Below, one piece after another: positions 46,453-50,980 of a stretch of 64,000 nt of DNA. The notes under the pieces were generated by a model. It was not told the origin of the DNA. It was given only the letters and a program-made list of their open reading frames with translations, and did no database searches. This DNA comes from Helcobacillus massiliensis (GTDB lineage Bacteria; Actinomycetota; Actinomycetes; Actinomycetales; Dermabacteraceae), in assembly GCF_014191425.1 (NCBI RefSeq), contig NZ_JACHWP010000001.1, positions 620,001-684,000 on the forward strand, read 5' to 3'. A program made the translations under genes and the position numbers. Position 1 is the first letter of the stretch. The number at the start of each line of letters is the position of its first letter.

Positions 46453-47303
46453 TGCTGCCGCAGGTGATCGTCCCGATCATGCCCGCCGGCCCCACCGCAG
46501 CCGCCGCTGCGGCCGCTGCCGCGGACCAGGCCAGCGCAGCCGTCGCGGCGGGGGCCGACGTCATCGAATGGCGCGTCGATGCGCTCGGAGAGGCCGCGCT
46601 CGACCCAGCGGTGCGGGCGGAGGCTGCGGACGCGATCTCCCGCGCTCTCGCCGCGCACGCCGACCCGGCGGCACAGGCAGGCGCAGCATCGCACCCCGGC
46701 CGGACGTTGCAGGCCCGACGGGTCCCGCTGCTCGCTGCGGTTCGCACCGTCGCCGAAGGCGACGGCATCGCCCTCGGCGACGACGCCTACGCCGATTTGC
46801 TGCTCGACCTCGCCGCTCGCTCCGGCATCGACGCGATCGACGTGGAGGCCGCCCGGCTCGATCCCGCCTCTGCCCGTGACCTCGTCACCGGCATCGCACA
46901 GACCGGCGCCGCGGTCATCGGCTCCAGTCACGACTTTCGGCGGACCCCGTCGGCCCCCGAGATCCACGCCCTTCTCGACGCTCTCCACGCCGCCGGCTGC
47001 CGCACGCTGAAGATCGCCGTGATGCCGACCAGCCGCGCCGACGTCCTCACCCTTATGCAGGCCGTTGAGTCGTATCAGTCCGCGCAGCCCGCCCCGAGCC
47101 GGAAACCGGTGATCGCCATGTCGATGGGTCCGCTCGGCGCCGTCACCCGGATCGCTCCGCAGGCGTTCGCATCCGCCGCCACGTTCGCCGCCGTCGGCCG
47201 CGCCAGCGCCCCCGGGCAGATCCCGATCGACCAGGTCCGCGCCGCCCTCCCGCTCAGCGGTGAGCTGCCGGGCTCAGCGGCCGCGGTGGTGCTGCGGGCC
47301 TGA
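46452..47303 (+). CDS. aroD: 3-dehydroquinate dehydratase, type I
   Basis: Dehydrates 3-dehydroquinate through a Schiff base. Type I features: EWRVD near residue 40, histidine in SSHDF, the lysine in TLKIAVMP, and MSMGPLG plus ASAPGQI at the end. Many actinobacteria use the unrelated type II enzyme AroQ here. The 283-residue protein has an Ala-rich N-terminus and a low-complexity insertion (about residues 72-92). Its 3' end overlaps the convergent channel gene by 30 bp. Confidence 0.9.
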   Translation: MLPQVIVPIMPAGPTAAAAAAAAADQASAAVAAGADVIEWRVDALGEAALDPAVRAEAADAISRALAAHADPAAQAGAASHPGRTLQARRVPLLAAVRTVAEGDGIALGDDAYADLLLDLAARSGIDAIDVEAARLDPASARDLVTGIAQTGAAVIGSSHDFRRTPSAPEIHALLDALHAAGCRTLKIAVMPTSRADVLTLMQAVESYQSAQPAPSRKPVIAMSMGPLGAVTRIAPQAFASAATFAAVGRASAPGQIPIDQVRAALPLSGELPGSAAAVVLRA

Positions 47304-48230
47304 CTCGAACGGCGCCTCATCGTCGTCATCATCATCGACGTGCATCGCGCCGTCATGATCGTGCTCGCGCCGCAGTGACGGGAAATGGATCTGGAACGGC
47401 GGCGCAGCCGCCCTGGAGTCCGGCTCCTCAGGTGTTCCCTCCACGTTGAAGAAGGAGTCGTGCACGAGGTCCTGCGGGTCCAGCACCGGGATCTGCCCGG
47501 TCTCCGCCGCCACCCGCTGCCGCTCCTCGCGCCGCACCCGCCGCACGAACGCCCGCATCTGCACCGGTGACAGGGTCACGGCGAGATCGGGGGCCGTCGG
47601 CAGGGACCAGCGGCGCCACTGCGCCAGGATCGCCACCGCCGTGCCCGCGAGCGCCGCCAGCACCACGATCCAGCTCGGCAGGTTGAGGGCATCCACACCC
47701 CAGGTGAGGACCGCGGTCAGCAGTGCGGCCGTCGCATACAGAGGGCCGCCGGTGAAGATCCCGGGGATACGGCCCACCATGACGTCGCGGATCACACCGC
47801 CGCCCACCGCCGTCGTGAGCCCCAGCAGGATCGACGGCAGCGGTGACAGGCCCGCCCCGAGCGACTTCGCGCACCCGATCGCGGCCCACACGCCGAGAGC
47901 GACCGCGTCCAGCACCGTGGTGGAGTGCCTCCAGATCCTGGCGTCCACGGAGATGAGGAACGCGATGAGGACGCCGGCGAGGCTCGCCGCGAGGTACCAC
48001 GGGGTGGAGAAGGCGGCCGGCACGCCCTGGGCGAGGATGAGGTCGCGGATGATGCCGCCGCCGAGACCGGACACGATGCCGATGAATGCGAAGCCGACCG
48101 CGTCGAACTGGAGGCGCCGGGCGAGCGCACCGCCGACGATCCCCATCACGAACACGCCGATGAGGTCCATCGCGCGCATCATGTCGTTCGTCAGCAGGAA
48201 CGTCTCGGGGGTCGCGGCAGAGCTGGGCAT
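47274..48230 (-). CDS. TRIC-type cation channel family protein (UPF0126)
   Basis: Bacterial homologues of trimeric intracellular cation channels. About seven membrane spans in two repeats, each with its glycine motif: GGGIIRDLI and GGGVIRDVM. After the membrane part comes a long cytoplasmic tail (about residues 210-318) ending in a run of six aspartates and several histidines, which could bind metal. Start at ATG 48230 fits a leaderless promoter (TAGGCT, 6 nt away). Ion specificity is unknown. Confidence 0.87.
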   Translation of the reverse strand: MPSSAATPETFLLTNDMMRAMDLIGVFVMGIVGGALARRLQFDAVGFAFIGIVSGLGGGIIRDLILAQGVPAAFSTPWYLAASLAGVLIAFLISVDARIWRHSTTVLDAVALGVWAAIGCAKSLGAGLSPLPSILLGLTTAVGGGVIRDVMVGRIPGIFTGGPLYATAALLTAVLTWGVDALNLPSWIVVLAALAGTAVAILAQWRRWSLPTAPDLAVTLSPVQMRAFVRRVRREERQRVAAETGQIPVLDPQDLVHDSFFNVEGTPEEPDSRAAAPPFQIHFPSLRREHDHDGAMHVDDDDDDEAPFESGPQHHRGR

Positions 48231-48247
48231 ATCAGTAGCCTACGTCT
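48231..48247. promoter_or_regulatory. Two opposed leaderless promoters in a 17-bp spacer
   Basis: Plus strand: TAGCCT (48236-48241), 6 nt, then ATG of coaE. Minus strand: TAGGCT (48242-48237), 6 nt, then ATG of the channel gene. The hexamers overlap by six bases on opposite strands, and no Shine-Dalgarno fits. Confidence 0.6.
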
Positions 48248-48877
48248 ATGCGTCACCACCTTCAGCGCGTCGGTCTGACCGGCGGGATCGGTTCCGGAAA
48301 GACGACCGTGGCGGACCGGTTCCGCGAGACCGGCATCACGGTCATCGACCTCGATGAGCTGTCCCGCGCCGTCCTCGACCAGCCCGGCGAAGGCGTCGAT
48401 GATATGGTCGCCCGCTTCGGCGCCGAGTACCTCAACAGGGCCGGCACTGCGGACCGGGCGAAGCTCGGCGACCTCGTATTCTCCGACGCCGCCGCCCGCG
48501 CCGACCTCGAACGCATCGTCCTCACCCGCGTCGCCGAACAGGTCAGCGCCCTCGATGAGGCGGCCGCGGCGGCGGGGGAGGAGTTCATCGTGCACGACTC
48601 GCCGCTGCTGCTGGAGAAGGGGCACGACGCCGACTTCGCCGTCATCATCGGTGTCCTCGCCCCCGTCGAGGAGCGCATCCGTCGGGTCATGCAGCGCTCG
48701 AACAAGACCCGCGAGTGGGTGGAGCGCGTCATCGCCGCGCAGACCACCGATGATCAGCGCCGCCGCCGCTGCCACATCCTCATCGACAACACCGGCACCC
48801 GTGAGGACCTCGCCGCCGCCGCGGACGCTGCGGTGGGGGAGGTCCGACGGATGCTCGCTCCCAGTGATCCCCACTAG
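48248..48877 (+). CDS. coaE: Dephospho-CoA kinase
   Basis: Last step of coenzyme A synthesis. P-loop GLTGGIGSGKTTVADRF at residues 9-25, the DLDELSRAV stretch that binds substrate, and the lid RSNKTREWVERVI are present. Length 209. It begins with the first transcribed codon (leaderless layout) and ends in TAG, which doubles as part of the uvrB -10. Confidence 0.95.
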   Translation: MRHHLQRVGLTGGIGSGKTTVADRFRETGITVIDLDELSRAVLDQPGEGVDDMVARFGAEYLNRAGTADRAKLGDLVFSDAAARADLERIVLTRVAEQVSALDEAAAAAGEEFIVHDSPLLLEKGHDADFAVIIGVLAPVEERIRRVMQRSNKTREWVERVIAAQTTDDQRRRRCHILIDNTGTREDLAAAADAAVGEVRRMLAPSDPH

Positions 48878-48880
48878 TGT
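48875..48880 (+). promoter_or_regulatory. -10 of leaderless uvrB promoter, over the coaE stop
   Basis: TAGTGT, then GGCCGC, then ATG of uvrB at 48887. The TAG is also the coaE stop codon. No ribosome-binding site and no LexA-type box is seen nearby. Confidence 0.55.
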
Positions 48881-48886
48881 GGCCGC

Positions 48887-50980
48887 ATGCGTCCCGTCAC
48901 TGATCTGGTCCGAGCCCGGCACCCCTTCGAGGTCGTCAGCGAGTACGAACCCGCCGGTGACCAGCCGAAGGCGATCGACGAACTGGCGCGCCGCATCAAC
49001 GACGGCGAACAGGACGTGGTCCTGCTCGGCGCGACCGGCACCGGCAAGTCCGCGACCGCGGCGTGGCTGATTGAGAAGGTGCAGCGCCCCACCCTGGTGA
49101 TGGCGCACAACAAGACCCTGGCCGCGCAGCTCGCCAGTGAGTTCCGAGAACTGCTGCCGAACAACGCGGTCGAATACTTCGTCTCCTACTACGACTACTA
49201 CCAGCCGGAGGCGTACGTCCCGCAGTCGGACACGTACATCGAGAAGGACTCCTCGATCAACGCGGAGGTGGAGCGGCTGCGCCACTCCGCCACGAACTCC
49301 CTGCTCACCCGTCGCGACGTGGTCGTGGTGTCGTCCGTGTCCTGCATCTACGGCCTCGGCACCCCGCAGGAGTACGTGGACCGGATGGTGCGCCTGTCCG
49401 TCGGCGAGGAACTGGACCGCGACGACCTGCTGCGCCGGTTCGTGGACATGCAGTACGACCGCAACGACGTCTCCTTCGTCCGCGGCACCTTCCGGGTGCG
49501 GGGCGACACGGTCGAGATCATCCCGATGTACGAGGAGCTCGCCCTGCGCATCGAGTTCTTCGGCGACGAGATCGACGCCCTGTACACCCTCCACCCCGTC
49601 ACCGGTGAGGTGATCCGCGAGGAGGAGCAGGTCCACATCTTCCCCGCCTCCCACTACGTGGCGGGCCCCGAGCGACTCCAGCGCGCCATCGGCGACATCG
49701 AGAAGGAGCTCGCCTGGCGGCTCGAGGAGCTCGAAGGGCAGAACAAGCTCCTGGAGGCGCAGCGGCTGCGGATGCGCACCACCCACGACATCGAAATGCT
49801 CCGCCAGACCGGCTCCACCAACGGTGTGGAGAACTACTCCCGCCACTTCGACGGGCGCGGACCCGGCACCCCGCCGAACACCCTCATGGACTACTTCCCG
49901 GAGGACTTCCTGCTGATCATCGACGAGTCGCACGTGACCGTCCCGCAGATCGGCGCCATGTACGAGGGGGACCGTTCCCGCAAGCGGACGCTCGTGGACT
50001 ACGGGTTCCGGCTCCCGTCGGCCCTCGACAACCGGCCCCTGAAGTTCGAGGAGTTCATCAAGCGGACCGGACAGACCGTGTACCTCTCGGCGACCCCGGC
50101 GCAGTATGAGCTGGAGCGGGCGAACGGGTACGTGGAGCAGATCATCCGCCCCACCGGTCTCGTGGACCCCGAAGTGATCGTGAAACCGGTCAAGGGGCAG
50201 ATCGACGACCTGCGCGCAGAGATCGAGAAGCGCGTGGAGAAGGACGAGCGCATCCTCGTCACCACGCTGACGAAGCGGATGGCGGAGGACCTCACCGACT
50301 ACCTCCTGGAGAACGGGGTGCGGGTCCAATACCTCCACTCCGATGTGGACACGCTGCGCCGCGTGGAGCTGCTGCGGTCCCTGCGCATGGGTGAGTTCGA
50401 CGTCCTCGTGGGCATCAACCTGCTGCGTGAGGGTCTGGACCTCCCCGAAGTGTCCCTCGTGGCGATCCTCGACGCCGACAAGGAGGGATTCCTGCGTTCG
50501 CGCACCTCCCTGATCCAGACGATCGGCCGCGCCGCCCGCAACGTCTCCGGACAGGTGCACATGTACGCGGACACGATCACCGAGTCGATGCGCGAAGCGA
50601 TCGACGAGACCACGCGCCGCCGCGAGAAGCAGATCGCGTTCAACAAGGAGAACGGCATCGACCCGCGGCCGCTGCGGAAGAAGATCGCGGACGTCACCGA
50701 CATGCTCGCCCGCGAGGACGTCGACACCGAAACCCTCCTGGCCACCGACTACCGCGCCGGGAAGGAGAGGGTGGCGAGCCGCCACGGCCGCGGCGACTCC
50801 GTGCTCAACAACCGCTCGCTGGACCTGGGCGATGACCCGGTGGCGACGCTGAAGGACATGATCACGGAGATGACCACCTCGATGCACGCGGCAGCGGAGG
50901 CGCTCCAGTTCGAGGAAGCCGCCCGCATCCGCGACGAAGTGTCCGAACTGAAGAAGGAGCTGCGGCAGTTCGAAGGCTGA
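48887..50980 (+). CDS. uvrB: Excinuclease ABC subunit B
   Basis: Damage-verifying helicase of nucleotide excision repair. Walker [15 protein letters not shown], the beta-hairpin region [33 protein letters not shown] and [20 protein letters not shown], and a C-terminal UVR motif ([19 protein letters not shown]) that binds UvrC. Length 697. Begins 9 bp after coaE. Confidence 0.97.

Follow-up and report, generated by a model that had tools for sequence, protein, structure and literature searches.

Can two divergent genes be transcribed from one -10 element when each transcript is expected to begin at its own start codon? The question is raised by a locus of Helcobacillus massiliensis lying in the window, i.e. 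the whole stretch of 64,000 nucleotides that was analysed (contig NZ_JACHWP010000001.1, positions 620,001 to 684,000). A first-pass annotation had described a symmetric pair of leaderless promoters within the 17 bp that separate a channel gene from coaE, and had proposed that polymerases competing for the site couple a membrane channel to coenzyme A synthesis.

Layout of the intergenic site and choice of start codons

Direct reading of the plus strand at 48228-48250 gave CAT, 17 bases and ATG (Table 1). We thereby confirmed the arrangement described in the first-pass annotation, namely divergent starts with 17 bp between them and the hexamers TAGGCT and TAGCCT exactly 6 nt before each ATG, overlapping by five base pairs (48237-48241). 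TRIC proteins are cation channels. The annotated identities of both genes also held, as the products match PF03458 and PF01121, respectively, and a profile of TRIC family members matches the solved TRIC proteins 5H35 and 5H36, as well as 5WUF, 5WUC and 5WTR. A consensus scan of the locus found no -35-like partner, and the bases preceding the hexamers are not TGN.

Table 1 Features of the divergent coaE/TRIC locus (positions are those of the window)
Feature	Position	Strand	Details
TRIC-type channel gene	47274..48230	-	318 aa; Pfam 'Gly_transporter' PF03458; ATG 48230-48228; residues 7-16 align with family N-termini
coaE, dephospho-CoA kinase	48248..48877	+	209 aa; PF01121 CoaE; ATG 48248-48250
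Minus-strand ATG (read CAT)	48228-48230	-	start of the TRIC-type channel gene
Spacer ATCAGTAGCCTACGTCT	48231-48247		17 bp between the two start codons
Plus-strand ATG	48248-48250	+	start of coaE
Predicted -10 of coaE, TAGCCT	48236..48241	+	6 nt upstream of ATG; first triplet is an in-frame TAG
Predicted -10 of the TRIC gene, TAGGCT	48237..48242 (read 48242-48237)	-	6 nt upstream of ATG; first triplet is an in-frame TAG
Symmetric core TAGCCTA (TANNNTA)	48236..48242	.	common to both predicted promoters
Predicted coaE transcription start	48248	+	A of ATG; from geometry only, rule in the available part of PMC10268837; complement is -18T of the minus promoter
Predicted TRIC transcription start	48230	-	A of ATG; from geometry only, rule in the available part of PMC10268837; complement is -18T of the plus promoter

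Because each hexamer opens with a TAG in frame with its own gene (12 nt upstream of the ATG in coaE), neither gene can start further upstream. The first six TRIC codons (ATG CCC AGC TCT GCC GCG) hold a single start codon, the ATG at 48230, and nine residues of CoaE stand ahead of the conserved LTGGIGSGK. None of the five Shine-Dalgarno-like motifs scanned precedes either ATG, and both genes have a TANNNT about 6 nt before the start codon, as expected of leaderless genes; the in-frame TAGs and the absent Shine-Dalgarno-like motifs thus leave no other start for either gene. Relatives begin TRIC at what corresponds here to codon 4 (in Dermabacter) or codon 6 (in most other genomes); in this genome these two codons are TCT and GCG, and its TRIC ATG is 3-5 codons further out than the starts of the relatives. 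With leaderless transcripts, as predicted, 18 bp would separate the two start sites on their opposite strands. The base pairs at 48237 and 48241 both do double duty, supplying -11A to one promoter and -7T to its partner, and the A of either ATG pairs with -18T of the opposite promoter.

A leaderless-looking start was also seen at uvrB (ATG 48887), where the element TAGTGT (48875-48880) ends 6 nt upstream of the ATG and begins on the coaE stop codon TAG (48875-48889 region).

Leaderless TANNNT starts in the H. massiliensis genome

Spacing was analysed in a 364,000-base sample made up of the window and fifteen 20-kb stretches. TANNNT-N6-ATG occurred 23 times and TANNNT-N7-ATG 14 times, versus 0-12 at every other spacing from 0 to 20, and ahead of long GC3-rich frames TANNNT was found at 6 nt (n = 16) and 7 nt (n = 4), and the remaining offsets between 0 and 24 had 0-3 cases each. 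The peak at 6-7 nt shows that this genome does use leaderless TANNNT starts. The base that makes the hexamer symmetric, an A directly after TANNNT, is uncommon at such starts: the position 3' of the hexamer at 34 leaderless-like starts in the sample was mostly G (n = 22), followed by T and C (n = 5 each), and an A stood there at two starts only, those of coaE and TRIC. TANNNTA itself occurred 20 times in the sample (about 5.5e-5 per position), and the full composite CATN5TANNNTAN5ATG was found once in the whole genome (2,616,799 bases).

Comparison within the Dermabacteraceae

This genome is the only species of its genus in the family comparison. Of the 47 family genomes, 46 yielded coaE. Querying the genome contigs with just the TRIC protein gave no match, and an alignment-based scan returned 56 loci. 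A divergent TRIC gene lies upstream of coaE at 45 of the 46 family loci, the remaining one (L195) having no TRIC gene within the stretch examined. With the leaderless signature defined as TANNNT 5-8 nt upstream of the start codon, coaE carried it at 39 of 46 loci, TRIC at 44 of 45 and both genes at 38, a spread in the family that supports the annotated pair of leaderless-type -10 elements. In place of TANNNT, the other seven coaE loci (four Dermabacter, two g6 and one g5) have Shine-Dalgarno-like motifs. Among the 38 loci with both signatures, only the present one has a 17-bp spacer; the remaining 37 have spacers of 41-182 bp and promoters that lie apart. The prevailing arrangement predicted for the family is thus a separate leaderless promoter for each gene. 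The first-pass annotation had called for the spacer to be compared in related genomes: its length of 17 bp was not conserved, being unique to this genome, while the TANNNTA core was retained in the sister genus.

Three Brachybacterium loci (L014, L026 and L028) have TANNNTA at TRIC, yet their coaE has a separate -10 of its own, so symmetry alone is no proof of shared use. At a Brachybacterium-type locus (L007), the TRIC gene is without a leaderless -10 and is separated from coaE by about 830 bp (670-1500), with another gene seemingly in between. Two coaE matches contain an in-frame TGA (L017, and L184 from G037) and another came in two pieces (L196, from G028), which suggests sequencing errors or decay.

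Persistence of the symmetric core in the sister genus

In a midpoint-rooted FastTree phylogeny of concatenated CoaE and TRIC sequences (45 loci), this genome grouped with four g3 genomes with a support of 1.0. The name Dermabacter for g3 was taken from named records with identical intergenic sequences, which exist for three of the four: L125 (D. hominis), L131 (Dermabacter sp.) and L128 (Helcobacillus massiliensis / Dermabacter indicis). The remaining locus, L030, has no such named counterpart. In all four Dermabacter genomes the TRIC leaderless -10 lies inside a TANNNTA (TAACCTA once, TAATCTA three times) that has a five-base overlap identical to the one found here and includes the sole forward TANNNT between the genes. 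Dermabacter coaE is preceded by an AGGAG motif and, counted from the predicted start, its leader measures about 50-62 nt; the TRIC start codon is GTG. The outer TA..TA is constant across TAGCCTA, TAACCTA and TAATCTA and the middles differ; the flanks of this genome showed no convincing alignment with those of Dermabacter. The occurrence of TANNNTA in Dermabacter with different middles and flanks indicates that the shared -10 is probably older than the contraction to 17 bp.

In 320 kb sampled from one Dermabacter genome, the symmetric A was present at 3 of the 44 starts that look leaderless. Outside this genome and Dermabacter, TANNNTA was found at 3 of 39 leaderless-like TRIC starts, all of them the Brachybacterium cases above, and the corresponding Fisher test (5/5 versus 3/39; p value of 5e-5) is descriptive only because the genomes are related.

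Occurrence of the composite across the order

Across 297 genomes of the order, 46 contained the composite CATN5TANNNTAN5ATG, at 65 places in total, versus 34 for the reversed pattern (table tally). A swapped-core control (CATN5ATNNNATN5ATG) was commoner than the real pattern, being found in 108 of the 297 genomes, but it is poor for counts because the 30 control loci examined fall mostly inside reading frames; we make no claim of enrichment. Frames were inspected at all 65 places, 57 of which were judged on frame length and look without a family search. Pfam-confirmed genes on both sides were found at two of the 65, the coaE/TRIC pair and L094 (1001-1023), and a class of fused pairs across the order was rejected on this count and on the commoner control. 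The L094 composite, from another family of the order, lies between msrA (minus strand) and an aldo-keto reductase gene (plus strand), and is apparently an independent fused leaderless pair; the fused form recurs yet looks rare.

Frames flank the composite on both sides at L047, L059, L060 and L061, with at least one side lacking a Pfam match above the cut-off. The starts at L059 and L060 are doubtful, since one frame stays open for 55 and 183 codons, respectively, upstream of the ATG. At L047 (1501-1523), in a 0.9-Mb genome, a nearly perfect palindrome CATCATTGTAATTTACAATGATG separates long divergent frames that both start with MDMK and gave no Pfam match. L054 and L058 were rejected as gene pairs, as they look like one gene and a shadow frame. 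A single repeat-like element accounts for nine places in G294, and it has lookalikes at no fewer than three others (L039, L040 and L118); the element, with the core GGATAGGTTAT, was seen at L038 and L120-L124 as well as at these three, in genomes of one genus (g74).

Six further places (L051, L062, L093, L096, L099 and L108) had appeared to share a conserved small peptide, a candidate we rejected: it is a short ATG frame opposite a LysR-type gene (Pfam-tested at L108, assigned by sequence likeness at the other five), and the real divergent neighbour is an FAD-dependent gene, which we take to be aspartate-oxidase-like. The frame from the composite ATG runs into the gene at L108 and ends within 20 codons at the other five, where a more convincing start, preceded by a TAGCGT-type element of its own, is found about 60 nt further on. 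The LysR-type gene has a leaderless-type start, and a conserved ATGCATTGGA-like motif between the two genes is perhaps the site of the LysR-type regulator. At L105, L107 and L111, from three genera of one family, the composite precedes a DUF3090 gene (Pfam-tested at L107 only) with no clear gene opposite, possibly reflecting antisense or small-RNA firing.

Interpretation of the 17-bp spacer

With a probability of about 0.7, we read the site at 48228-48250 as a shared bidirectional -10 element forming a minimal housekeeping-sigma promoter. TAGCCTA would be a single symmetric core that recruits RNA polymerase in both orientations, one polymerase at a time, and transcription would begin at the A of each ATG or within one base, giving leaderless mRNAs for coaE and the TRIC-type channel. 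We favour this explanation because its geometry fits the 18-bp bidirectional arrangement described in the available parts of the literature (see below), because no alternative start remains in a genome that uses leaderless TANNNT starts, because the leaderless signature is so widespread at coaE (39/46) and TRIC (44/45) in the family, and because all four Dermabacter genomes keep the shared TANNNTA though few leaderless-like starts have an A following the hexamer (2/34 here and 3/44 in Dermabacter). Counting against it are the 17-bp spacer, unique among 46 family loci, the Brachybacterium loci in which symmetry coexists with a separate coaE -10, the lack of a -35-like partner and of TGN, and the fact that, given one TANNNT, the symmetric form requires one further base only. 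Nor does the persistence of TANNNTA amount to five independent events, as the five genomes are related.

The overlap could be a tolerated accident of intergenic shrinkage by deletion, with no history of shared use. The occurrence of the 17-bp form in one genome only would fit such a chance origin, as would the low cost of the two elements, which together have four fixed bases; we nevertheless consider it unlikely, because the same five-base overlap is found in four Dermabacter genomes without comparable shrinkage and with three core middles overall. It is also conceivable that only one of the overlapping hexamers works, more likely that of TRIC, and that transcription of the other gene comes from another promoter type or from within its neighbour. 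The leaderless -10 of TRIC is indeed the more widespread in the family, the three Brachybacterium loci are symmetric though coaE there has its own -10, and 27% of M. tuberculosis start sites are without TANNNT according to the available part of PMC3898074. For coaE, however, the in-frame TAG 12 nt upstream, the absence of a Shine-Dalgarno-like motif and a hexamer at the usual leaderless distance of its relatives speak against such a division of labour, which we regard as improbable.

A shared bidirectional -10 does not by itself imply the regulation proposed in the first-pass annotation, in which polymerases compete for the core and strong firing one way represses the other, so that the channel is traded off against CoA synthesis. 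Mutual exclusion of polymerases at the site is likely on steric and structural grounds, and the available text of PMC12825309 reports that opposed polymerases cannot co-bind and that, in E. coli, a strongly activated direction can repress its partner. The same text found no substantial competition at five of five E. coli bidirectional promoters tested, their basal activity being too low, and most relatives keep the two promoters apart. Competitive coupling of the channel to CoA synthesis is thus unproven and not supported as stated, and we judge it very unlikely.

Concerning the history of the shared -10 element, the simplest account places a symmetric -10 serving both coaE and TRIC in the common ancestor of Helcobacillus and Dermabacter, after which the coaE start of this genome would have come to leaderless distance; its TRIC start has moved as well, and the order of the steps is inferred. 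A further proposal is tentative, at somewhat less than even odds: selection for two-way firing would have preserved this ancestral -10, and in this genome the symmetry of the promoter and the spacing of the start codons would be locked together at 17 bp. In this smallest form, the first base of each start codon would at once be the transcription start, the translation start and the complement of the -18T of its partner. If confirmed, the case would provide comparative evidence that bidirectionality between two protein-coding genes can be a trait kept across genera, and not a mere by-product of -10 symmetry. The locus offers a natural test case in which two-way firing would meet leaderless translation within 23 bp, and its relatives provide the contrast: in Dermabacter a shared -10 is combined with a leader on one gene, and most others have fully separate promoters.

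Relation to known divergent promoters

The founding paper on symmetric -10 bidirectional promoters is reportedly that of Warman et al. in 2021. In such promoters the divergent start sites lie 7-25 bp apart, most commonly 18, according to the portions of the literature available; the accessible part of PMC10268837 gives 18 bp as the most frequent separation in most bacteria, with -7T and -11A pairing reciprocally and -18T opposite +1A, and that of PMC12825309 likewise reports the 18-bp distance. The site described here resembles the E. coli and Salmonella promoters of Warman, Grainger and colleagues, as far as those accounts go, in that the -10 elements on opposite strands overlap with -7T and -11A in reciprocal register, the predicted start sites are separated by 18 bp and each predicted +1A stands opposite the -18T of the partner. 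It differs from them in that its -10 elements are of the actinobacterial TANNNT type and leaderless transcripts are predicted for both genes, the start codons themselves forming the +1/-18 positions.

Titles and opening abstracts on leaderless and bidirectional or divergent promoters yielded no leaderless pair sharing a -10, a weak negative with subscription papers mostly outside that scope. Divergent leaderless neighbours as such are already known: in the available part of Cortes et al. 2013 (PMC3898074), M. tuberculosis prpD and Rv1129c are each leaderless, and divergent promoters in close juxtaposition are said to be common in that species. Like these M. tuberculosis genes as described there, the coaE/TRIC pair has TANNNT 7-12 nt upstream of the start site, no conserved -35 and a start site that falls (here by prediction) at the start codon; beside prpD / Rv1129c, the two hexamers here overlap by five base pairs. 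With the other Dermabacteraceae, the pair shares its genes, their orientation and the leaderless TANNNT signature, unlike the 37 loci with longer spacers and a -10 for each gene. On its sequence features, the locus is a well-supported candidate for a compact addition to a known kind of two-way bacterial promoter.
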